From Ectothiorhodospiraceae bacterium 2226 (GTDB taxonomy: Bacteria; Pseudomonadota; Gammaproteobacteria; GCA-013348725): a stretch of 64,000 bases of DNA. Numbering within the stretch: position 1 is the stretch's first letter; each line of letters starts with the position of its first letter. The stretch is taken from assembly GCA_013348725.1 (NCBI GenBank), contig CP054689.1:236501-300500 (forward strand), read 5' to 3'. The notes beneath the pieces are model-generated. The model saw nothing but the letters and a program-made list of their open reading frames with translations, was not told the DNA's origin and searched no databases. Positions 9,187 to 22,466 of this stretch are shown here, one piece after another. A program made the position numbers and the translations under genes.

Positions 9187-10143
9187 CTACTCCGGTTCGT
9201 GATGCATGGGCTCCAGCGCGCGCAGATAGACCGCGATGGCGCGTCGGTCCGCGTCGGTCAGATGTGAGGTGCCATCATCGATCACGTCGGCCATGCTATC
9301 CCCGGCAAAATCGCCATCTCGCGTCAGCCCCATCTCCAGATAGCGGGCGATGTGGCGCGCCCCCCAGCGGCCGATGCCGGTCTCCCGCTCCGGCGTGATA
9401 TTGGGCGCGACGTCGCCACCGGGCAGCCGCGCCCCCGCGCCGAGCTGCTCCCGTTGCAAGCCGCCGGTGCGGGTGCGCGGTGTGTGGCATTCCATGCAGT
9501 GGCCCAGCGCCAGCGTGAGGTACGCCCCGCGATTCCACTCGTCGGATTCATCCGGGTCCGGCTCGAAGGTGCCCGGCTCGAAGTGGAGCCACCGCCAGCC
9601 CCTCAGGGCTGGCCGGAATCGCGCAAACCACAGCAACTCGTGGGGCGTGTTCTCCCGTGCCACCGGCGCCACCTCGGACTGCAGAAAGGCCCACAGGGCC
9701 TCGACGTCACGCGCCTGCATCTTCGTATAGGAGGTGAACGGAAATACCGGGTAATAGTGGCGTCCGTCCGGGCCGCGGCCGTCCAGCAGAGCCCGTCGTA
9801 GATCCTCCTCGGACCAGTCACCGATGCCGTGTTCCGCGTCCGGTGTGATGTTGGGGCCATAGAACGTTCCGAACGGGCTCGCGATCGGCCGTCCCCCGGC
9901 GAGAAACTCGCCCTCCTTCGCCGTATGACAGGTCACGCAGCCGCCGGCGCGCAGCACGTACCTGCCGTGGGCGATGAGGTCCTCTTCTCCCGCCTCGGGG
10001 TCATGCTCGCCAATCGCTACCTGCGCCTGAGTGGGCGCGACCCAGGCAAGGCCGGCAAGGCACAGCGCGGGAAGCCACGCTGCTGCCCCGCGCTTCACGG
10101 CGCGCCCCGCACGGATCACTCGCGGCGGAAGTCGTCGTGACAC
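9187..10143 (-). CDS. Periplasmic diheme cytochrome c
   Basis: The protein has about 318 residues. It has a signal peptide (hydrophobic to about residue 38) and two class I cytochrome c domains with heme motifs CVTCH (69-73) and CMECH (216-220). The fold resembles the cytochrome subunits of membrane alcohol and gluconate dehydrogenases, which usually have three hemes; this one has two. The start is uncertain: GTG at 10143 overlaps the upstream gene by 28 bases, whereas an in-frame GTG at 10119 would give a GTGA overlap with its stop. It probably shares electrons with, or is co-expressed with, the cytochrome c' next door. Confidence 0.85.
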   Translation of the reverse strand: MSRRLPPRVIRAGRAVKRGAAAWLPALCLAGLAWVAPTQAQVAIGEHDPEAGEEDLIAHGRYVLRAGGCVTCHTAKEGEFLAGGRPIASPFGTFYGPNITPDAEHGIGDWSEEDLRRALLDGRGPDGRHYYPVFPFTSYTKMQARDVEALWAFLQSEVAPVARENTPHELLWFARFRPALRGWRWLHFEPGTFEPDPDESDEWNRGAYLTLALGHCMECHTPRTRTGGLQREQLGAGARLPGGDVAPNITPERETGIGRWGARHIARYLEMGLTRDGDFAGDSMADVIDDGTSHLTDADRRAIAVYLRALEPMHHEPE

Positions 10144-10583
10144 GCCTGGCAGGACTGTCCCAGATTGCGGAACCGGATGGGGTACTCATCCTCCTCGCCG
10201 GCCTCCACCGCCGCATGCAGTGCGTCGACGGCCTCGCGAGTGTCATCGGCCAACTCGACGAAGCGGTCCCAGTCATCCCAGATCTCTTCGCGCGCGTCGG
10301 TCTCGGGGAAATCGCTGCCCTCGGGGAACAGTGCGGGGATGTCGCGCGTCAGATCCACGAGGTGCTGGGCATGCAGCTGCAGATTGTCGCCATAGTCGGC
10401 GCCGTCCATGATGATCGCAGCAAGCGAACCCACGTTACCGCCGATCGCCCGCATGACGCCCTGACGATAGTCGATCGTGGCCTCCTGCTCCTCGAACGCT
10501 TGCACCGAGGCGGTTGTGCCCGCCCCCAGCGCGAGTACGGCCGCCACCGAGGCCGCGGTAACCAGACGAGCGGATTTCTTCAT
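10116..10583 (-). CDS. Cytochrome c' (class II c-type cytochrome)
   Basis: This 155-residue exported protein has a signal peptide of about 29 residues. A four-helix-bundle cytochrome c'/c-556 domain follows, with the heme motif CQACH near the C terminus (residues 145-149), as the class requires. Cytochromes c' bind NO and CO and protect against nitrosative stress. A GGGGGG ribosome-binding site precedes the ATG. The 220 bases upstream (10584-10803) hold the presumed promoter and nothing else recognised. The stop overlaps the start of the diheme cytochrome gene, implying one transcript. Confidence 0.88.
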   Translation of the reverse strand: MKKSARLVTAASVAAVLALGAGTTASVQAFEEQEATIDYRQGVMRAIGGNVGSLAAIIMDGADYGDNLQLHAQHLVDLTRDIPALFPEGSDFPETDAREEIWDDWDRFVELADDTREAVDALHAAVEAGEEDEYPIRFRNLGQSCQACHDDFRRE

Positions 10584-11627: not shown

Positions 11628-12983
11628 TTAACGCATACCGAGGCGCTTGAGCTTGCGCCACAGCGAGACGCGGTCGATGCCGAGCAGCTGCGCGGCCTGC
11701 GTCTTGTTGCCGCCGGTCTGCGCCAGCACACGCCGGATATGGGCGGCCTCCTGCGCTTCCAAGGAGACATCGCCCGCCGCGTCGGCGCCCTGAAGCGCTT
11801 CGCCCGCGCCAGCGTGCAGCTCAGGCGGCAGATGGCGGGCCTCGATAACCCCATCCGGGGCCAGCGCGATGCCCCGCACCACGATGTTCTCGAGTTCGCG
11901 CACATTGCCGGGAAAGTCGTGCTGCAGCAGCCGCGCCATGGCCTCCTCGGTGACGCGCTCGGCGGGCCGCCGCAGGAGGGCGGCATGCTTCTGCATCAGA
12001 TGGGCGATCAGTAGCGGGATGTCCTCGCGCCGCTCGCGCAACGGGGGTATGTGCAGCCCGACCACGTTCAAGCGGTAGTAAAGGTCCTTGCGCAGCACGC
12101 CCGCGGCCACGGCCTCCTCGGGGTCGCGGTTGGTGGCGGCGAGAAACCGCACGTCCACCGGTACCGCGCGGGTGGCCCCCAGGGGCAGCACCTCACGCTC
12201 CTGGATCACCCGCAGCAGTTTCACCTGCATCGCGGGCGACATCTCGGTCACCTCATCCAAGAACACCGTGCCGCCATTGGCCGCCTCGATCAGACCTTCT
12301 TTGTCGTTCCCGGCGCCGGTGAAGGCGCCCTTCGCATGGCCGAACAGCTCATTGGCCAGCAGGTCCTCGGAGAAGGCACCGCAGTTGGCCGCCACGAACG
12401 GCCCCTGCGCACGCCGACCATGCGCATGCAGGTAGCGGGCGACCAGTTCCTTGCCGGTCCCGCTCTCGCCGGTGATGAGCACGCTGCAATCCACCCCGGC
12501 GACTTGGCGGGCGGTGGTGAGCAACTCGCGCATGCGCGCATGATTGCCCACGATGCGCACCGTCCCTTCCTCGGCATCCAGCAATTGGCGCAGGCGGTCG
12601 TTCTCCGCCCGCAGGCGCACCTTCTCCACCGCCTCGTGCACGATCTGGCGCACCTCGTCGAGTCGAAACGGCTTGGCCACATAGTAGAAGGCGCCTTCGC
12701 GCATCGCGTCGACCGCCGACTTGAGGGTGGCGTAGCCGGTAATGAGGATGACCTCCGTGTGCGGGTGCAGCTCGCGGCAGTGACGCAGGACCGCAATGCC
12801 GTCCACAGGCTTCATGCGCAGGTCGGTCAGCACCACCTCGAAGCGCTGCTCGTCCAACGCCGCCAGGGCGCGCTCGCCGTCGTCCAGCGCGACGACCTCG
12901 TAGCCCTCCTTTTGCATGACATGGGTCAGGTTGCGCAGGGCAATCTGTTCGTCGTCGACGATCAGGATGCGCGGTTTACTCAT
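11628..12983 (-). CDS. NtrC-family sigma-54-dependent response regulator
   Basis: The 451 residues comprise a receiver domain with phospho-acceptor Asp54, an AAA+ domain with Walker A GESGTGKE and the sigma-54-contacting GAFTGA loop intact, and a Fis-type helix-turn-helix (NKTQAAQLLGIDRVSLWRKL). It should activate sigma-54 promoters when phosphorylated by the kinase encoded immediately upstream; the two genes overlap by 4 bases (ATGA). The only strong sigma-54 promoter seen in the window lies just beyond the kinase gene, in front of the UspA-like/SulP operon, which is the likely target. I cannot assign a named system. Confidence 0.93.
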   Translation of the reverse strand: MSKPRILIVDDEQIALRNLTHVMQKEGYEVVALDDGERALAALDEQRFEVVLTDLRMKPVDGIAVLRHCRELHPHTEVILITGYATLKSAVDAMREGAFYYVAKPFRLDEVRQIVHEAVEKVRLRAENDRLRQLLDAEEGTVRIVGNHARMRELLTTARQVAGVDCSVLITGESGTGKELVARYLHAHGRRAQGPFVAANCGAFSEDLLANELFGHAKGAFTGAGNDKEGLIEAANGGTVFLDEVTEMSPAMQVKLLRVIQEREVLPLGATRAVPVDVRFLAATNRDPEEAVAAGVLRKDLYYRLNVVGLHIPPLRERREDIPLLIAHLMQKHAALLRRPAERVTEEAMARLLQHDFPGNVRELENIVVRGIALAPDGVIEARHLPPELHAGAGEALQGADAAGDVSLEAQEAAHIRRVLAQTGGNKTQAAQLLGIDRVSLWRKLKRLGMR

Positions 12984-14467
12984 GCAGGTTCCTCCTCGAG
13001 ACAGGCCGGAAGACGCACCACGAAGGTAGCGCCCTCCCCCGCCCGGCTGCTGACGCCGAGGCAGCCGCCATGGCGCTCCACGATCTCGTAGCTGACGAAC
13101 AGGCCGAGACCGGAGCCCCCGCCCGGCGGCTTCGTGGTAAAGAAGGGATCGAAGATGCGCGGCAGCAGTTCGGGCGGAATGCCGGGGCCGGCGTCCCGCA
13201 CGAATACATCCACTGCCGCGCCACCCCCGGCGGTGCAGGAGTCCATGCCGGCCAGCGCCGGATCGTCGGGGGCGGTGTCTCGGGCGGGCTGCGCCTGTAC
13301 GAGCACGCGTCCCCCGCCACGCTCGGCGGTCGCGTCCAGGGCATTCTTGACCAGGTTGAGAAACACCTGCTGCAGGCGCTGCGGATCACCGATGACGCAC
13401 AGCTGCCCCGGCACCTCGACGTCGAGCGCGACGCCCGCCGGAATGCTGCCGCGCAGGAAGGTCAGGGTGCGCTCGAGCAGCGGCAGCAGCGCCACCGGCA
13501 CGCGCACCGGCTCGCGCTCGCGCGCGAAATCCAGCAATGCCAGCACGATCAGACGGGCGCGCTCGCCCTGTTCGTCGATCTGGCGCAGCAGCTCCTGTGC
13601 GAACGCCGGATCGAGTTCGGGCAATTCTTCGCGCAGGATCTGGCACGAGGAGGAGATGTTCGCGAGGGGGTTGTTCAGCTCGTGGGCGACACCCGAGAGC
13701 AGGGTGCCGAGCGAGGCCAGCTTCTCCGACTGCACCAGGCTGCGTCGGCGGCGCTCGAGTTCGTCCAGCACGTGGTTGAAGGCGCGGGCCAGGGAGGCGA
13801 TCTCGCTGTCCGAGGCGTGCTCGTCGAGGCGACGCAGGCGGCCTTCGCCAAGTTCGCCCATGTGCCGCTCCATCGTGCGCAGAGGGCGTATCACGGCCCG
13901 CGACAGCCCCTGCCCGACTGCGACCGCGAGGCCCGCGAGGAGCACCAACGCGATCAGCAGCTGCGTGCGCGCACGCTGCAGCGCCTTCTGCAGCAATTCG
14001 CGCTCGCGGCTCGCCTTGCGCTCGGCCACATCCGTCAGCGCCCGCCCCTCGTTGCGAATGGCCGTCACCAGCGCCTCCGGCACCGCGCCGCCGCCCACAA
14101 CCGTCTCCGCGTACTGCGCCATGGCCTGCCGATAGCGCGCGAGATCCCGGCTGATCTCCTGCAGACGCTCCGGCGTCGCCACCAGGCCCAACTCCTCGCC
14201 GCGCGCGGTCATGAACACGCCGACTTCGACCGCGAGGCGACGAAACTCGCGATAGTCCTCCGGCTCGCCGTACAGAAAGTAATTCTTCTCGAAGCGGCGC
14301 ATCTCCAGCACGGTATCCAGAAACTGTGACACCGCCTGCCCCTGTGCCACGCGGTCCTCCACGGCGCGCAAGTCAGCCAGCAGCCAAGCCACCAACACGA
14401 TCAGCACCACCAGCAAACTGGCGTAGGCCCAGCGGATCTTGGCCCGCAGACTGCTCCACACGCGCAC
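12980..14467 (-). CDS. Membrane sensor histidine kinase, partner of the adjacent regulator
   Basis: This 495-residue protein has transmembrane segments at about 12-31 and 168-187 flanking a periplasmic all-helical sensor region that includes RRFEKNYFLYG, typical of four-helix sensor domains. A HAMP linker, a HisKA domain with phospho-acceptor His262 in AHELNNPL, and an HATPase domain (NALDA, DAGPGIP, GSGLGL) follow. It phosphorylates the response regulator, whose start it overlaps by 4 bases. Its ligand is not readable from the sequence; divergence from a SulP transporter gene suggests an anion-related or energy-related cue. Confidence 0.93.
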   Translation of the reverse strand: MRVWSSLRAKIRWAYASLLVVLIVLVAWLLADLRAVEDRVAQGQAVSQFLDTVLEMRRFEKNYFLYGEPEDYREFRRLAVEVGVFMTARGEELGLVATPERLQEISRDLARYRQAMAQYAETVVGGGAVPEALVTAIRNEGRALTDVAERKASRERELLQKALQRARTQLLIALVLLAGLAVAVGQGLSRAVIRPLRTMERHMGELGEGRLRRLDEHASDSEIASLARAFNHVLDELERRRRSLVQSEKLASLGTLLSGVAHELNNPLANISSSCQILREELPELDPAFAQELLRQIDEQGERARLIVLALLDFAREREPVRVPVALLPLLERTLTFLRGSIPAGVALDVEVPGQLCVIGDPQRLQQVFLNLVKNALDATAERGGGRVLVQAQPARDTAPDDPALAGMDSCTAGGGAAVDVFVRDAGPGIPPELLPRIFDPFFTTKPPGGGSGLGLFVSYEIVERHGGCLGVSSRAGEGATFVVRLPACLEEEPA

Positions 14468-14526
14468 CGCGCCTCCTCAGCAGCGCCCGCTCGATTAGAG
14501 CCGTGGCGCTGCATTCCTGAAACACT

Positions 14527-14563
14527 GTTGCACAGTGTAACGCTTACCGATGCAACATGTAAC
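14527..14563 (+). promoter_or_regulatory. Two tandem upstream activator sites for an NtrC-type regulator
   Basis: GTTGCACAGTGTAAC (14527-14541) and GATGCAACATGTAAC (14549-14563) agree at 11 of 15 positions, giving GnTGCAnnnTGTAAC. Each is an imperfect dyad. They start 22 bases apart, two helical turns, so a regulator would sit on one face of the DNA. They lie about 55-90 bases upstream of the sigma-54 -24 element, the usual enhancer distance. The first site also nests a perfect ACACTG-N5-CAGTGT dyad. Binding by the adjacent regulator is inferred. Confidence 0.6.
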
Positions 14564-14616
14564 ACACAAACCTTCGTCATGACTGTACGTCATTGACTCC
14601 ACGGGATCATTTCATA

Positions 14617-14632
14617 TGGCACGGAACCTGCT
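14617..14632 (+). promoter_or_regulatory. Sigma-54 (RpoN) -24/-12 promoter
   Basis: TGGCACGGAACCTGCT matches the TGGCACG-N4-TTGCT consensus at all but one defined position, with exactly 10 bases between the invariant GG and GC. Transcription would begin near 14643, giving a leader of about 30 bases before the UspA-like start codon. Confidence 0.88.
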
Positions 14633-14672
14633 CCTTAACGGCCAGCAAGCTATTCCATAAGGAGACACCTTC

Positions 14673-15134
14673 ATGAGCCTGTTGCGACTCCTAAGCAACG
14701 TCCAACACGCGGCACGGGGCCTGGCCGGCGAGTTTCTCTCGGCCCGCGACATGGCCGAGCAGCTGAGCGGCGCCCCCGCGTTGAATGCGGCACCCGAAAA
14801 GGGCCGGGTGCTGCTCGCCATCGAAGGGACCCGCCCCACCCCAAGCGCACTGCGCTACGCCCTGGAGGCCTGCCACCGCGCACACGCCGACCTGGATCTG
14901 CTCTTCGTCGGCCCCCGTCCCGTCGAGGCGGCGCCGAGCGCCCCCGTCGGCATGACCATCCGCGCCCTCCACCGTCCGGGTCCGCTAGCCGAGCGCATCA
15001 GCGAACACGCCCGGCGTTGCCGCGAGCTGTTGTGCATCATCACCTCGCCCGGCCCCGATGCAAGCCTGCTCTGGCCGGCGGAACCCTCCCGGCGGATGTC
15101 GGTGCCGGTGGTCATCCTGGACGCCGCGGCATGA
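14673..15134 (+). CDS. Small UspA-like (universal stress protein-like) protein
   Basis: This 153-residue protein has a core with the Usp fold pattern: an initial strand VLLAIEGT, the helix SALRYALEACHRAHA, the strand DLDLLFVG and a final strand VPVVIL. The GxxGx9GS nucleotide-binding motif of ATP-binding Usp proteins is missing and about 45 extra N-terminal residues precede the domain, so it may be a non-ATP-binding or regulatory variant. AAGGAG lies 8 bases before the ATG. Its stop overlaps the SulP start (ATGA), so the two are translationally coupled under the sigma-54 promoter. Confidence 0.68.
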   Translation: MSLLRLLSNVQHAARGLAGEFLSARDMAEQLSGAPALNAAPEKGRVLLAIEGTRPTPSALRYALEACHRAHADLDLLFVGPRPVEAAPSAPVGMTIRALHRPGPLAERISEHARRCRELLCIITSPGPDASLLWPAEPSRRMSVPVVILDAAA

Positions 15135-16876
15135 GCGACCGCACCACCAAGCTCTCCGCGCCCTGGAGCAAGCTGTTTCCCTTCCTGCGCTGGTTCCCGC
15201 TGGGCCCAGGGGCGCTGCGCACGGATGGCTTAGCGGGCTTGACGGTCGCTCTGGTGCTCATCCCCCAGTCCATGGCCTACGCCCAGCTCGCGGGTTTGCC
15301 GGTCGTGTACGGTCTGTACGCCTCCTTCGTGCCGGTGATCGTGGCGGCGCTGTGGGGATCGTGCCCGCAGCTGCACACGGGACCGGTCGCCATGCTTTCG
15401 CTGATGACCGCCGCGGCGCTGGCACCGCTGGCCGCCGCCGGCACGGATGCGTACATTGCCCTCGCGCTGCTGCTTGCCTTACTGGTCGGGGTCTTCCGGC
15501 TGGCGATGGGCCTGCTCCGCGCGGGCTTCCTCGTCAGCCTGCTGTCGAGCCCGGTGATCGCGGGCTTTACCAATGCGGCGGCGCTGATCATCGCGCTCTC
15601 GCAGCTCAACAAGGTATTCAATCTCCCGCTGGAGCAAAGCGGCGTTTTCCTGCGCGACATTCTGCAGCTCTTACTGCAGATCGCCGACGCGCACTGGCCC
15701 ACACTGGTCGTGGCGGGCGCGGCGTTCCTGTTGCTGGTCGGGCTGAAGCGTTGGGCGCCGCGCGTGCCGGGCGTGCTGGTGACGGTGGTGCTGGCCACCG
15801 CGGTCAGTGCGCTGATCGGCTTCGAACGCCTCGGCGGCCAAGTGGTGGGTCAGATCCCGCAGGGGCTGCCCGGACTCAGCCTGCCGGCGCTGGACCCGGC
15901 GGCGGCCGCACAGCTCCTGCCCTCGGCCTTCGTCATGGCGCTGATCGGCTTTCTGGAGGCCATGTCCATTTCGCGCGCCATCGCCGCCCGCACCCGACAG
16001 AAGGTCAACCTCAACCAGGAACTGGTCGGCCAGGGCCTGGCCAACATCGCGGGCAGCTTCTTCCAGTCCTTCGCGGTGAGCGGCTCCTTCTCGCGCTCGG
16101 CGCTCAACGCGGCGGCGGGCGCACGTACGGGCCTGGCGGCCATCTTCAGCGCACTCGCGGTGGTGCTCGCGCTGCTGTACCTCACGCCGGTGTTGTACCA
16201 CCTGCCGCAGGCCGTGCTGGCGGTGATCGTCATGCAGGCGGTGTCGGGGTTGATCGACGTAAGCAGCCTGCGCCGCGCGTGGCGCATCCAACGCCAGGAT
16301 GCGGTGGCCGGCTTGGTCACTTTCGTGGCCACGCTCGCCTTCGCACCACGGCTGCAGGACGGCATCCTGGTGGGCGGCGGCCTGGCGTTGGCGTTCTTCG
16401 TGGCGCGCACCATGCGCCCGCGCATCGCGGTCCTAAGCCGCGCGGACGACGGGCAGTTGCGCGATGCCGAGGTGCACCGGCTACCGACCAGCGACCGCAT
16501 CATGGTGCTGCGCATGGACCGTTCGCTGTATTTCGCCAACGCGAGCTATTTCACGCAGACGGTGCAGGCGGCGGTGCAGGCGCGGCCTGCGCTGCGCTAC
16601 GTGCTGTTGGTGGGTGACGGCATGAACGAAGTGGACGCCTCCGGCGAGGAGGCCCTGCGTGAACTGGCTCGTGAGCTCCAGCGCAAGGGGGTCACGCTTA
16701 CCCTGAGCAGCCTGAAGCGCCCGGTCTACCAGACCCTGCGCACCAGCGGACTAGTGACGGAGATCGGCGAGGACCGGGTGTTCGTGGACGAGGAAGCGGC
16801 CCTAGCGGCCTTCGCGCACCGCCTGGGGCCGGACTACGACCCGGCACAGTGTCCGCTGCGGCCGCGCGCGGCCTGA
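15131..16876 (+). CDS. SulP-family anion transporter with STAS domain
   Basis: This 581-residue protein has the SulP signature PQSMAYAQLAGLP at about residues 45-57, roughly 10-14 transmembrane helices, the SGSFSRSALN motif, and a C-terminal cytoplasmic STAS domain (about 440-560) containing EVDASGEEAL. SulP proteins carry sulfate, bicarbonate or carboxylates; the substrate cannot be read here. The chosen ATG overlaps the UspA-like stop by 4 bases. It is a paralogue of the SulP gene at 49110-51263, and both end in a CPL-containing tail. Expression probably follows the sigma-54 promoter. Confidence 0.92.
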   Translation: MSDRTTKLSAPWSKLFPFLRWFPLGPGALRTDGLAGLTVALVLIPQSMAYAQLAGLPVVYGLYASFVPVIVAALWGSCPQLHTGPVAMLSLMTAAALAPLAAAGTDAYIALALLLALLVGVFRLAMGLLRAGFLVSLLSSPVIAGFTNAAALIIALSQLNKVFNLPLEQSGVFLRDILQLLLQIADAHWPTLVVAGAAFLLLVGLKRWAPRVPGVLVTVVLATAVSALIGFERLGGQVVGQIPQGLPGLSLPALDPAAAAQLLPSAFVMALIGFLEAMSISRAIAARTRQKVNLNQELVGQGLANIAGSFFQSFAVSGSFSRSALNAAAGARTGLAAIFSALAVVLALLYLTPVLYHLPQAVLAVIVMQAVSGLIDVSSLRRAWRIQRQDAVAGLVTFVATLAFAPRLQDGILVGGGLALAFFVARTMRPRIAVLSRADDGQLRDAEVHRLPTSDRIMVLRMDRSLYFANASYFTQTVQAAVQARPALRYVLLVGDGMNEVDASGEEALRELARELQRKGVTLTLSSLKRPVYQTLRTSGLVTEIGEDRVFVDEEAALAAFAHRLGPDYDPAQCPLRPRAA

Positions 16877-16893
16877 GCGCCGACGCACATGAG

Positions 16894-16926
16894 ACTGCCG
16901 CGCCTCGACAGTCGGGGCGCGGCAGT
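16894..16926 (+). terminator. Probable terminator of the UspA-like/SulP operon
   Basis: ACTGCCGCGCC and GGCGCGGCAGT form an 11-bp perfect stem with an 11-base loop, 18 bases after the SulP stop. The T tract is weak (TCTC). Confidence 0.65.
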
Positions 16927-16982
16927 TCTCGATCAGGGATTGGGATTGGCGCGGCCGCAGACGCAACCGCGCAGCGCATGAC

Positions 16983-18319: not shown

Positions 18320-18769
18320 TTACTCCGCTATCCCGGCAGGCGGCTCACTCAGCTCGGGATCCGCGCCCGGCGAGACCTGCTCGCCCGGCTCGGGCGCCAC
18401 TTCGGGCTGCGGCGACTCGCCCGGGAGTTCGCCGGCCTCGCCGGCCTGGATCGCCTCCATGAATTGCGCGAACTCCGCCTCGTCGATCACGCCGTCTCCG
18501 TCCTGATCGGCGCGGTCGAAATTCTCCGCCAGCTCGCGCATCGCGCTCGCCTCCTCGCGCGTAATATGCCCGTCACCCGCTTGGTCGAGCTGCGAGAACT
18601 CCTCACCGTACGCGGTGTCAGCCTCCCCGGTGCCCATATCGTCCATGGTGCTACCGACCCCGGGTGCCGGCGCATCCTGGGCACCCGGATCGTCGCCATG
18701 TTCGGCCGCGACCACACCCAGCGAGAACAATGCGGCCGCGATCGCCACCGCCAGTTGCTTCCTTTGCAT
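18320..18769 (-). CDS. Exported EF-hand calcium-binding protein
   Basis: This 149-residue protein has a signal peptide (about 1-22). The second EF-hand loop, residues 88-99 (DQDGDGVIDEAE), has all calcium ligands. The first, at 62-73 (DQAGDGHITREE), has Ala in place of the second Asp ligand. The C terminus is Pro/Glu-rich and acidic. It is probably a periplasmic calsensin-like or calcium-buffering protein of unknown partner. GGAG precedes the ATG. The gaps on both sides (168 and 179 bases) hold no other recognised feature. Confidence 0.82.
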   Translation of the reverse strand: MQRKQLAVAIAAALFSLGVVAAEHGDDPGAQDAPAPGVGSTMDDMGTGEADTAYGEEFSQLDQAGDGHITREEASAMRELAENFDRADQDGDGVIDEAEFAQFMEAIQAGEAGELPGESPQPEVAPEPGEQVSPGADPELSEPPAGIAE

Positions 18770-18948
18770 AACTCATCTCCTTGTCGCTCGAACCACAGCC
18801 ATTAGCTAATCAAAACCCGTGCCAGGCGAGGCCGGCCGTCCGAAGCGCGCGACGGCACGCAACGTGCGACAGGCTAGAGGCAAGCGACCGCGGTTACCGC
18901 AGGCGGAATATCGGGTTCTCCGTTGCCTGGCGACGACGCATCGTCGGC

Positions 18949-19599
18949 TCACGAACCGTCAGCGGAGTCTGATGTGGAAAGTGCCGGTGTGGCCTGGCCT
19001 CGCTCCTGTTGATCGAGGCGCTCACGCAGCCCCTCCTCGATCGAGATCAGCGCCTTCACCTTTTCTTCCAGGCGCACCGCACGTTCGGCCTGCCTGGCGG
19101 CGTGTCGGTTCTGGGCCTCGATCGAGCGCAGCACATGCACCATCAAATACGCCAAGTCGATCAACGGTTGTTCGGCCGCATCCGCCTGCTCGATCTCGCG
19201 CTCGAGCAATGACGCCGCACGCGCGGCGCCTTCCGGCTCCTCGCGCGCCAGTTCGACCATGGCCAGGTGCAGGCGACCGACCAGCCCGGTGTCCTCCGCG
19301 CGCGCCAGCGCACCTTCATACTCACGCTGCCGCACGTCGTTGCTGGTGCCGTGCAGATAACGGAAGTAATTGAGCAGCGCGGCGGCGCGCGCCGCTTCCC
19401 CTGCCCAATCGCCGCCCACACGATGGCGCTGCCCCAGCCCCTCCGAAGCGGGCGGTGTTGGGCCGGCGGGCATCGAGCGCGGGTCGGGCGGGTTCGTGGT
19501 GGAGAATGGTCCCCCGCCTACCGAAGCCGGATTGGCCGCCAAACCGCTGGCGCCCAATCCGCCTATCAGCACCAGGGCCAATGCGTACCCCCGCTTCAT
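18949..19599 (-). CDS. QseG-like protein, third gene of the GlrR/GlrK locus
   Basis: This 216-residue protein has a signal peptide and a helical, Glu/Ala-rich body ending in a coiled coil (AARQAERAVRLEEKVKAL and onward). Position, size and helical character match QseG (YfhG), the outer-membrane lipoprotein that modulates GlrK/QseE in enterobacteria. No lipobox cysteine is visible here, so it may be soluble in the periplasm. Its ATG overlaps the kinase stop by 4 bases, implying coupled synthesis. Sequence similarity to QseG is judged by eye and is weak. Confidence 0.6.
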   Translation of the reverse strand: MKRGYALALVLIGGLGASGLAANPASVGGGPFSTTNPPDPRSMPAGPTPPASEGLGQRHRVGGDWAGEAARAAALLNYFRYLHGTSNDVRQREYEGALARAEDTGLVGRLHLAMVELAREEPEGAARAASLLEREIEQADAAEQPLIDLAYLMVHVLRSIEAQNRHAARQAERAVRLEEKVKALISIEEGLRERLDQQERGQATPALSTSDSADGS

Positions 19600-21044
19600 G
19601 CGATGCTCCGTATGTCTTCGCGCGGCAGGCTTACCCGGAAATGGGCGCCGCGATCCGGCTCGCCCAGGAGTTCGATGCCGCCTCCGTGAGCCGCCACGTA
19701 CTCCCGCGCAATCGACAGCCCGAGCCCGGTGCCGCGGACATGCCCTACGGAAGCGGGTCGCCCCTGGAAAAACGGATCGAAGATCCGCTCGCGTTCCTCA
19801 AACGGAACCCCGGGCCCCTGATCGCGCACCTCCAGCACGGCCCGCTCCCCCTCCGCCCCCAGCCGTACGGTCACCTCTCCGCCGAGCGGCGAATACTTCA
19901 CGGCATTGGAGAGCAGGTTGTCGATCACGCTGCGCAGGCGCTCTTCGTCCGCTTGCACCACCAGCGGTTCGATATCGAGAGACAAGCGCAAGCGCTTGGC
20001 CAAGATGACGTGCTTGTGATCCGCCGCCACCCGCTTCACCAGACGGTGTAGCTTGACCGGCGCGCGCACGACAACCGGACCGCGGTAGCAGGCCGCGCTG
20101 AAGTTCAGCAGATCCTCGATGCGCTTCTGCAACTGGATGGTGTTCGAGTGCAGGATGGCGGCGACGTCATGCTGCGCGCTGTTGAGCGTGCCGACCGCCT
20201 CCTGCATGAGCAGATTGCTGCCCTCGCGCAATGCGGCAAGCGGCGTCTTAAGCTCGTGGGAGATGTGCCGCAGGAACTTGTTCTTTTCCTCCTCGAGCGT
20301 GAGCAGCCGCACCCGCAGCCATTCCAGGCGCTGCCCCACCACCTCCAGATCGCGCGGCCCGCGTACGGCCACCGGCGCATTGAATTGCTCGTTGCCCAGC
20401 CGCCGGATCGCGCCTTCGATTTGGTGAATCGGGCGCGCGATCAAATAGGTGAAGATGACCGCGAGTCCAATGGCGACACCGCTGAGCAACACCGCCTGCC
20501 AGAGGACTCCGCTCTTGATCTGCGTCGCTTCGCTGCGCAGCGCATCGAGTTCACCGTCGATAAAGTGCCGGCTGCCGGCGAGCATGTCGTGGGTCAACTC
20601 CGACAACTCGGAGAAGCCCTGCAGGGCCGCCCGAATCTCGGGCCCATCGTGGGGATAGGTACGCAAGGTCTCAAAGATCGCGCGCTCCTGATCGCGCAAC
20701 GCGCGCATCGAGCCCTGCTGCGCGACATCCTCCACGCCGTGCGCCAAGCGCTGCGCGGTGTGCTGAAACTGCTCGCGGCTCGCCTGATAGCTGCGAAACA
20801 CCGCCTCGTCGCCTACCACCTGAAACTGCCGGGCGCCGCGCTCCAGCGCGGTCACCTGCTCTACCAGCATGCGGCGGTCCTGGATGAAGTCCACCGCCAG
20901 CAACACCGTCTGCTGGCTTTGCGCGGCAAGCCGATCGATCGCCAGCGTGGCGGTCCATAGCGCCACCAACATGGGGATAGCGACCAACGCGAATGCGCTC
21001 AGAATGAGCGTGAGCAGCGATTTGGTGAAGTACAGTCGCATCAT
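19596..21044 (-). CDS. glrK: GlrK/QseE-like sensor histidine kinase
   Basis: This 482-residue protein has transmembrane segments at about 9-29 and 183-203 around a helical periplasmic domain. A HAMP domain, a HisKA with His263 in SHELKTPLAALREG (typical of GlrK) and an HATPase domain (NLLSNAVKYS, DQGPGVPFEERERIF, GTGLGLSIA) follow. It should phosphorylate the GlrR-like regulator encoded 51 bases upstream. The gene order is regulator-kinase-QseG-like, unlike the kinase-QseG-regulator order of E. coli. In enterobacteria the system controls glmY and responds to cell-envelope signals. Confidence 0.85.
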   Translation of the reverse strand: MMRLYFTKSLLTLILSAFALVAIPMLVALWTATLAIDRLAAQSQQTVLLAVDFIQDRRMLVEQVTALERGARQFQVVGDEAVFRSYQASREQFQHTAQRLAHGVEDVAQQGSMRALRDQERAIFETLRTYPHDGPEIRAALQGFSELSELTHDMLAGSRHFIDGELDALRSEATQIKSGVLWQAVLLSGVAIGLAVIFTYLIARPIHQIEGAIRRLGNEQFNAPVAVRGPRDLEVVGQRLEWLRVRLLTLEEEKNKFLRHISHELKTPLAALREGSNLLMQEAVGTLNSAQHDVAAILHSNTIQLQKRIEDLLNFSAACYRGPVVVRAPVKLHRLVKRVAADHKHVILAKRLRLSLDIEPLVVQADEERLRSVIDNLLSNAVKYSPLGGEVTVRLGAEGERAVLEVRDQGPGVPFEERERIFDPFFQGRPASVGHVRGTGLGLSIAREYVAAHGGGIELLGEPDRGAHFRVSLPREDIRSIA

Positions 21045-21095: not shown

Positions 21096-22466
21096 CTAAG
21101 TCGGCTTGAACAGCGACGGATCGAGGCTGTGCCTATGCAGCAGCTTGTAGAATTCCGTTCGATTTCGCTTGGCGAGGCGCGCCGCTTGGCTGACGTTGCC
21201 GTTGGTAATGCGCAGCAGCTGCACCAGATAGCGCTGATCGAAACGTCCGCGCGCCTCGGCCAAGGGCAACATCTCCCGATCGCGATCGCGCTGACGCAGT
21301 GCGCTCTCCAGCAGTGCGGCGGAAATGATCGGCGTCGTGGCGAGCGTCACGGCCTGCTCCACGACGTTCTCAAGCTGCCGCACGTTGCCCGGCCAGGGCG
21401 CCGTCACCAGCATCTCCATCGCCTCCACCGAGAACCGGCGCAAGGGCTTTCTGTACCTGCTGCACAGCTTGCGCAGCATGTGCTCGACCAACAGCGGAAT
21501 GTCCTCGCGCCGCTCGGCCAGCGAAGGCAACTCCAGGGTGACGACGTTCAGGCGGTAATAGAGGTCCTCGCGAAACTCGCCCTCGTGCATGGCGCGTTCG
21601 AGATCGCGGTGCGTGGCCGAGACGATACGCACGTCCACCGGCACCAAATCGGTGGAACCTACCCGCCGCACCAGCTTTTCGTCCAATACGCGCAGCAACT
21701 TCGGTTGCAGAGACACCGGCAGGTCGCCGATCTCGTCGAGAAACAGGGTGCCTCCGTTGGCCGCCTGGAACAGGCCCCCGTAGTCGCGCGTGGCGCCGGT
21801 GAACGAGCCCTTGCTATGGCCGAACAACTCCGACTCGAGTAACGGCTCCGGAATCGCACTGCAATTGATCGGCACGAACGGGGCTTCGGCGCGCGGGCTC
21901 GCCTGGTGGATGGCACGGGCTAGCATCTCCTTGCCGGTACCGCTCTCGCCGCGGATCATCACGCTCGCGTCGCTCTGCGCTACCAGATGCGCCTGCCCCA
22001 GCAGGTCTTCCATCAGCGGACTTCGGGTGATGATGTGCGCGCGCCACCCCGCGCGTCCCTCGTCGACGGCCTGTTCGCAGCCGAGCTGCGCCGCCCGGCG
22101 CACCTGATCAAGCAGCTCCTCGCCGTCGAAAGGTTTGGTGAGAAAACCGAACGCACCGTCGCGTGTCGCCTGGACGGCATCCGCGATCGTGCCGTGCGCC
22201 GTAAGGATAATCACCGGCAGGGTGGGGTGGTCCTGATGAATGGTGCGAAACAGCGTAATGCCGTCCATCCCGTCCATGCGCAAGTCGGTGATCACGACCT
22301 GCGGGCGCGCCATGGAAATCCGCGACAGTGCCGCCTCGCCGCTGTCCACCGCGATGACATGGTAACCGGCCGAGTTGAGCCGAATGCTCAACAAGCGCCG
22401 AAGGTCGGGATCGTCGTCGACAAGCAGCACCGTGTCCTTGTGCGGCTCTGTGCCGTTCGGACGCAT
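21096..22466 (-). CDS. glrR: GlrR/QseF-like sigma-54-dependent response regulator
   Basis: The 456 residues comprise a receiver domain with phospho-acceptor Asp61, an AAA+ domain with GESGTGKE, and a C-terminal helix-turn-helix ending NRTEFYKLLHRHSLDPSLFK, a tail characteristic of GlrR/QseF. The sigma-54-contacting loop reads GSFTGA rather than GAFTGA. It is the first gene of the locus. The 234 bases upstream (22467-22700) carry two inverted repeats and no strong sigma-70 promoter. Target genes are not visible in the window. Confidence 0.87.
   Translation of the reverse strand: MRPNGTEPHKDTVLLVDDDPDLRRLLSIRLNSAGYHVIAVDSGEAALSRISMARPQVVITDLRMDGMDGITLFRTIHQDHPTLPVIILTAHGTIADAVQATRDGAFGFLTKPFDGEELLDQVRRAAQLGCEQAVDEGRAGWRAHIITRSPLMEDLLGQAHLVAQSDASVMIRGESGTGKEMLARAIHQASPRAEAPFVPINCSAIPEPLLESELFGHSKGSFTGATRDYGGLFQAANGGTLFLDEIGDLPVSLQPKLLRVLDEKLVRRVGSTDLVPVDVRIVSATHRDLERAMHEGEFREDLYYRLNVVTLELPSLAERREDIPLLVEHMLRKLCSRYRKPLRRFSVEAMEMLVTAPWPGNVRQLENVVEQAVTLATTPIISAALLESALRQRDRDREMLPLAEARGRFDQRYLVQLLRITNGNVSQAARLAKRNRTEFYKLLHRHSLDPSLFKPT

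Follow-up and report, generated by a model that had tools for sequence, protein, structure and literature searches.

A conserved two-component/sigma-54 module with a Usp-like partner protein and an anion transporter, probably for inorganic-carbon uptake, in chemolithoautotrophic proteobacteria

Bicarbonate uptake by SulP transporters of the BicA type is described in cyanobacteria and in Thiomicrospira pelophila. The SulP family also includes sulfate carriers, as does the SLC13 family, which in addition comprises dicarboxylate carriers. In some cases a small soluble protein is encoded together with a secondary transporter and regulates it: TeaD acts on TeaABC in Halomonas elongata, and SbtB, which is PII-like and not Usp-like, acts on SbtA. 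As to transcription, the regulators usually cited for carbon uptake in chemoautotrophs are of the LysR type, such as CbbR and CcmR, which control carbon-acquisition genes from beside their targets. In T. pelophila, a plain SulP did not rescue a carbonic-anhydrase mutant, whereas a carboxysome-linked SulP did (PMC12628692). In Thioalkalivibrio thiocyanoxidans, RNA-seq revealed a sigma-54 activator with a GAFTGA motif, G372_RS0112645, that rises with RuBisCO and is encoded six genes upstream of RuBisCO and the carboxysome, and sigma-54 was suggested to be a perhaps common regulatory actor (PMC5744179).

The locus analysed here lies in a window of 64,000 nucleotides from the genome of Ectothiorhodospiraceae bacterium 2226. 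Its composition matches no system that we found described in the open-access literature, in agreement with the initial annotation, and goes unmentioned in the searched portions of reviews and experimental papers on inorganic-carbon uptake in chemoautotrophs. The features of the locus, in window coordinates, are the following, with the supporting evidence in brackets:

11628..12983 (-), NtrC-type response regulator (Pfam Response_reg, Sigma54_activat, HTH_8)
12980..14467 (-), membrane histidine kinase (Pfam, hydropathy, relatives)
14527..14541 (+), distal putative activator site GTTGCACAGTGTAAC (12/12 against GTTRCANNNTGYAAC, genome-wide rarity)
14549..14563 (+), proximal putative activator site GATGCAACATGTAAC (11/12 against GTTRCANNNTGYAAC, position kept in relatives)
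14617..14632 (+), predicted sigma-54 -24/-12 element TGGCACGGAACCTGCT (11/12 match; RpoN in genome)
14660..14665 (+), ribosome-binding site AGGAGA (sequence, 7 nt 5' of ATG)
14673..15134 (+), gene of a small Usp-like protein, 153 aa (alignments, HMM, structure model of a relative)
15131..16876 (+), SulP/SLC26 anion transporter with STAS domain, 581 aa (Pfam, TIGR00815)
16893..16927 (+), strong hairpin 3' of SulP, possible terminator (MFE)

The start of the regulator gene overlaps the stop of the kinase gene, and an ATGA overlap joins the stop of the small gene to the start of SulP. The coupling of this last pair, pointed out by the initial annotation, holds in the window but is no general feature of the relatives. 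The hairpin after SulP spans 35 nt without a clear T tract, and the 69-nt stretch that holds it has an MFE of -40.9 kcal/mol (z -5.0). A search for sigma-70 promoters in the region found none.

The transporter contains PF00916 and a STAS domain and scores 426 bits with TIGR00815, against a threshold of 380, as expected of a SulP/SLC26 protein. With BicA it shares the SulP fold and the STAS domain, autotrophic hosts and, in relatives, a carboxysome neighbourhood; an identity with BicA was nonetheless rejected, as the BicA model NF050096 gives 156.7 bits against a cut-off of 880 and a Glu, in the motif GFLEAMSIS, takes the place of the BicA Asp on TM8. The best solved relative is instead AtSULTR4;1 (PDB 7LHV), a plant H+/sulfate symporter, to which the window SulP aligns with 342 bits, compared with 125 bits for BicA. 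In particular, the residues that in AtSULTR4;1 bind sulfate and carry the proton are kept, including the equivalents of Gln112, Tyr116, Glu347, Ser392 and Arg393. The window SulP differs from the plant protein in being bacterial and encoded in operons of autotrophs, and its substrate is a prediction. Its greater proximity to a sulfate symporter than to BicA makes sulfate transport a real rival to any role in carbon uptake. In most carriers SulP is about 680-710 aa long, with an insertion of some 110 aa that the window protein lacks. In three loci (L024, L025 and L027), SulP is replaced in the cassette by an SLC13/CitMHS protein with TrkA_C domains together with a protein that, by eye, we take to be NhaD-like, a pair that may serve Na+-coupled bicarbonate uptake.

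The distribution of the module was followed with the kinase, homologs of which were found in 13 genomes besides that of the window among 369 genomes of the class, giving 14 carriers; comparison at the level of order or family is uninformative, as the order holds one genome. A profile of the small protein matches in 11 of the 369 genomes, ten of which are kinase carriers with the two genes adjacent. Moreover, in 19 informative loci from named genomes the kinase-regulator pair faces the small gene, and the long SulP comes next wherever the contig extends far enough. All carriers (14/14) possess a true RuBisCO, compared with 11-12 among 40 controls (p about 1e-6 by Fisher's test), the controls being, for each family, the genome that comes first in the class sample, with no matching for lifestyle. 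DsrA is present in 12/14 carriers and 8/40 controls; among RuBisCO-bearing genomes, its enrichment is not significant. The carboxysome was considered as a specific correlate and discarded: csoS2 occurs in 8/14 carriers, and the comparison with 7/11 RuBisCO-bearing controls reveals no enrichment.

Accordingly, all 14 hosts are RuBisCO autotrophs, and in several relatives the module adjoins carbon genes, while in the window genome it stands about 1 Mb from cbbL and csoS2. In one genome (G044) the genes that precede it are DabB and DabA, one PII-like gene, a SulP of BicA type, CbbR and an entire alpha-carboxysome operon; in another (G125), SulP is followed by csoS1D, NUDIX, cbbL, cbbS, csoS2 and csoSCA; in two more (G042 and G183), genes of the csoS1D-NUDIX-cbbLS-csoS2 type lie within about 10 kb. 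Furthermore, csoS1D and SulP are separated by no more than about 0.3-4 kb in loci L038, L041, L048 and L053, acRAF/ParA and CbbR occupy the two flanks of the module in L049, and an LCIB-like carbonic anhydrase adjoins the regulator in L027, one of the loci with the SLC13 and NhaD-like pair. The module lies within 20 kb of RuBisCO in three of 13 genera, a proximity with a chance of about 6e-4 under random placement.

On account of the universal RuBisCO and of the carbon-gene neighbours, we consider it probable that this is a dedicated uptake module for inorganic carbon, most likely bicarbonate, of chemolithoautotrophic and mostly sulfur-oxidising proteobacteria. Points against are the SULTR-like nature of SulP, the frequency of DsrA, the lack of carboxysome enrichment, the distance from cbbL and csoS2 in the window genome, the sulfate and dicarboxylate carriers known in SLC13 and the failure of the plain T. 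pelophila SulP to rescue the carbonic-anhydrase mutant (PMC12628692). The first two of these would be explained if the module dealt with sulfate, the transporter either moving sulfate derived from cytoplasmic sulfur oxidation or importing it, with a kinase that senses sulfate or a sulfur intermediate and carboxysome neighbours that reflect a shared lifestyle. The conservation of all key AtSULTR4;1 residues and the occurrence of sulfate carriers within both SulP and SLC13 speak for such a role, which we nevertheless regard as unlikely: RuBisCO is the stricter correlate, two carriers are devoid of DsrA, the excess of DsrA fades among RuBisCO-bearing genomes, CbbR, csoS, DAB and LCIB genes recur as neighbours in several lineages, and a proton symporter is suited to import rather than to export. 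Still less probable is a function in pH or sodium homeostasis, whereby anion/proton and Na+/proton movements would offset the acid of sulfur oxidation and the kinase would sense pH or ionic strength. The NhaD-like antiporter of the three loci with SLC13, the conserved SULTR-like proton-coupling glutamate and the frequent link of Usp proteins with stress would fit this function; however, loci of the SulP type do without NhaD, their context is carbon fixation, and no recurring pH- or salt-regulated neighbour gene was seen at the loci.

The small protein had been called UspA-like, a definition that stands at the level of fold, on the model of a relative, but not at that of Pfam, as the window protein scores 20.3 bits with Usp (PF00582), below the cut-off of 24, and six relatives searched with the same model give no match. 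Alignments reveal a family architecture made of a conserved N-terminal helical motif (consensus MKxLTxxxKxMLxALAxAxAGExLSxxxK), a linker and a Usp-like alpha/beta domain, in which the Usp ATP motif G-2x-G-9x-G(S/T) is absent, by inspection, from the window protein and its relatives. The window protein's own structure model is too weak for a structure search (pLDDT 56), whereas that of the relative from L036 is confident only for residues 61-155, with a core block at pLDDT 72-89. On this model a Usp alpha/beta fold is predicted, with a Foldseek E of 9.8e-05 to the Usp domain of KdpD and, with VIA, top rows that are Usps (Z 11.1, rmsd 3.0, 111 aligned). TeaD (3HGM) is among the structural matches of the model (Z 9.5, rmsd 3.1, 108 aligned). 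Like TeaD and SbtB, the small protein is soluble and encoded with a secondary transporter; it differs from them in the missing canonical ATP motif, the extra N-terminal helical motif and the kind of transporter. It represents an undescribed family, in which an N-terminal motif is joined to a Usp-like domain that lacks the customary ATP motif. Its members are so divergent that the window protein, as sole query, matched nothing in a contig scan or in a plasmid collection.

Both L022 and the G333 lineage have shortened forms of the small protein, of about 30-90 residues and with the N-terminal part kept. The shortened genes recorded are at L023 3486-3692, L077 8643-8736, L078 3321-3545 and L022 7865-8062. 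The promoter sites persist in these loci, and the transporter is absent after the shortened gene in L077 and L022. The retention of the N-terminal part suggests that it may be essential. In G131, a family member with one in-frame TAG and no kinase nearby (L067 8544-9053), apparently a pseudogene or split gene, lies beside a carboxysome operon, directly upstream of csoS1D-NUDIX-cbbLS.

Control of the operon would be entrusted to the divergent gene pair. The kinase has two transmembrane segments (18-36 and 170-188) that flank a periplasmic segment of some 130 aa with the motif MRRFEKNYFLY, followed by HAMP, HisKA and HATPase domains. The regulator, encoded alongside its cognate kinase, has the organization of an NtrC-type activator, with a receiver (Asp in TDLRM), an AAA+ domain with GAFTGA at residue 219 and a Fis-type HTH. 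Its recognition helix GIDRVSLWRKLK is near-invariant and common to nearly all relatives, and GAYTGA or EAFTGA replaces GAFTGA in some of them. G372_RS0112645 of T. thiocyanoxidans, likewise a sigma-54 activator with GAFTGA, may be a counterpart of the window regulator; its position fits the layout of locus L034, and the RNA-seq study did not go into its targets (PMC5744179).

In the intergenic gap that separates the kinase from the small gene, the predicted -24/-12 element TGGCACGGAACCTGCT is one base off the consensus TGGCAYRN4TTGCW (11/12) and precedes the start codon of the small gene by 40 nt; RpoN is encoded in the window genome. When the gap is shuffled 300 times, three of the shuffles contain an equally good match, and matches with up to two mismatches are no more numerous than in shuffles. 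The two 15-mers GTTGCACAGTGTAAC and GATGCAACATGTAAC, which the initial annotation had described as phased sites, share the palindrome GTTRCANNNTGYAAC; their centres are 22 bp apart and precede the -24 GG by 85 and 63 bp respectively, which puts them at about -110 and -88 relative to the predicted transcript start. With at most one mismatch, GTTRCANNNTGYAAC has four sites in the whole 2.96-Mb genome, two of which are in this gap. None is found at the carboxysome operon of the window genome, and a search for a wider regulon, covering that genome and, in relatives, the loci of the carboxysome and DAB genes, found none either. The rarity of the palindrome makes the regulator look dedicated.

As a lone -24/-12 match and two 15-mers constitute weak evidence, both were tested by comparison among relatives, using 24 non-redundant kinase/small-gene gaps drawn from the regions around the kinase carriers and from 20 named-genome loci retrieved by means of the small protein, of which six belong to genomes already among the carriers. 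With a threshold of at least 10/12 for both motifs, the -24/-12 element is present in 24/24 gaps, 31-60 nt before the small gene, and the palindrome in 23. Its centre precedes the -24 GG by 62-64 bp in 18 gaps and by 72-75 bp in five, two classes separated by a step of 10-11 bp, that is one helical turn; a distal copy is common at -114 to -117 from the -24 GG. The one gap with no detected palindrome is shortened by the kinase start call. Conservation of the sites in relatives, on which the initial annotation had made its regulatory reading depend, is therefore borne out, and the predicted arrangement of tandem upstream sites and -24/-12 promoter is kept. That the sigma-54 control is a product of chance or a leftover, with a constitutive operon and palindromes bound by another protein, is most improbable, for despite the weakness of single-sequence consensus matches the elements keep position and sequence across divergent loci, the recognition helix is conserved, and in G316 a regulator without GAFTGA goes with a gap, not firmly bounded, that also has no -24/-12 element.

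This G316 kinase/regulator homolog (L033) is an apparently altered copy. Elsewhere in the window, a second near-consensus -24/-12 element, TGGCACGGGTTTTGAT at 18809-18824 (-), about 40 nt upstream of an ORF at 18320-18769 (-) that by eye we take to encode an EF-hand protein, may be another sigma-54 promoter. In a second kinase/NtrC-type regulator pair (19596-21044 and 21096-22466, (-)), the kinase gene is followed by a small ORF (18949-19599), a layout that to our eye resembles QseE-QseG-QseF/GlrKR, and at 9187-10583 (-) a cytochrome c' gene precedes an ORF that contains two haem motifs of the CxxCH type and resembles a diheme cytochrome c.

Taken as a whole, comparison of sequences confirms the four-gene module and its predicted control elements as real and conserved, each at the position assigned by the initial annotation, the divergent kinase and NtrC-type regulator with GAFTGA included. 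The conserved architecture argues for a dedicated sigma-54/two-component promoter module that would drive the small protein and the transporter in autotrophs. The two-component reading put forward by the initial annotation is upheld for the activator, the tandem sites, the sigma-54 promoter and the Usp-like/transporter pair, but its proposed cues of energy state or stress find no specific support. The link with RuBisCO, the exchange of SulP for SLC13 and NhaD-like proteins and the N-terminal motif of the small protein are additions to that annotation.

In the carbon-uptake reading, we infer that the substrate is bicarbonate, the cue carbon shortage and the small protein a gate. Specifically, the membrane kinase would respond to a cue, most likely a shortage of inorganic carbon or some condition that goes with it, and phosphorylate the NtrC-type regulator. 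Bound to the GTTRCANNNTGYAAC palindromes, the regulator would work together with the sigma-54 form of RNA polymerase at the -24/-12 element and so turn on the small protein and the transporter. The latter, SulP or, in some carriers, the SLC13-like and NhaD-like proteins, would most likely import bicarbonate to feed RuBisCO, inside or outside carboxysomes, as the genomic context suggests. By analogy with TeaD for TeaABC or SbtB for SbtA, the probable role of the Usp-like protein is to gate the transporter or to adjust its activity. In its most complete form, namely a carbon-limitation switch in which a kinase senses inorganic carbon in the periplasm and commands, through sigma-54, one bicarbonate operon gated by the Usp-like protein, with SLC13 and NhaD providing Na+-driven bicarbonate uptake, the scheme is tentative and rather doubtful.

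The module differs from known uptake systems for inorganic carbon, or at least for anions, by its undescribed partner protein and its unusual control. Unlike BicA, it comes with a Usp-like partner and with a two-component system of its own that would act through sigma-54; unlike CbbR and CcmR, it employs a phosphorelay, sigma-54 and upstream sites, and in some loci CbbR is a distinct gene alongside. Little is known of how chemoautotrophs perceive a shortage of inorganic carbon and switch on its uptake. A portable cassette of sensor, activator, promoter, small partner and pump, found beside carboxysomes in many lineages, would offer a handle on carbon sensing, and it puts forward a Usp-like family, as yet unnamed, as the partner of a transporter and the SLC13/NhaD-like pairs as candidate bicarbonate carriers.
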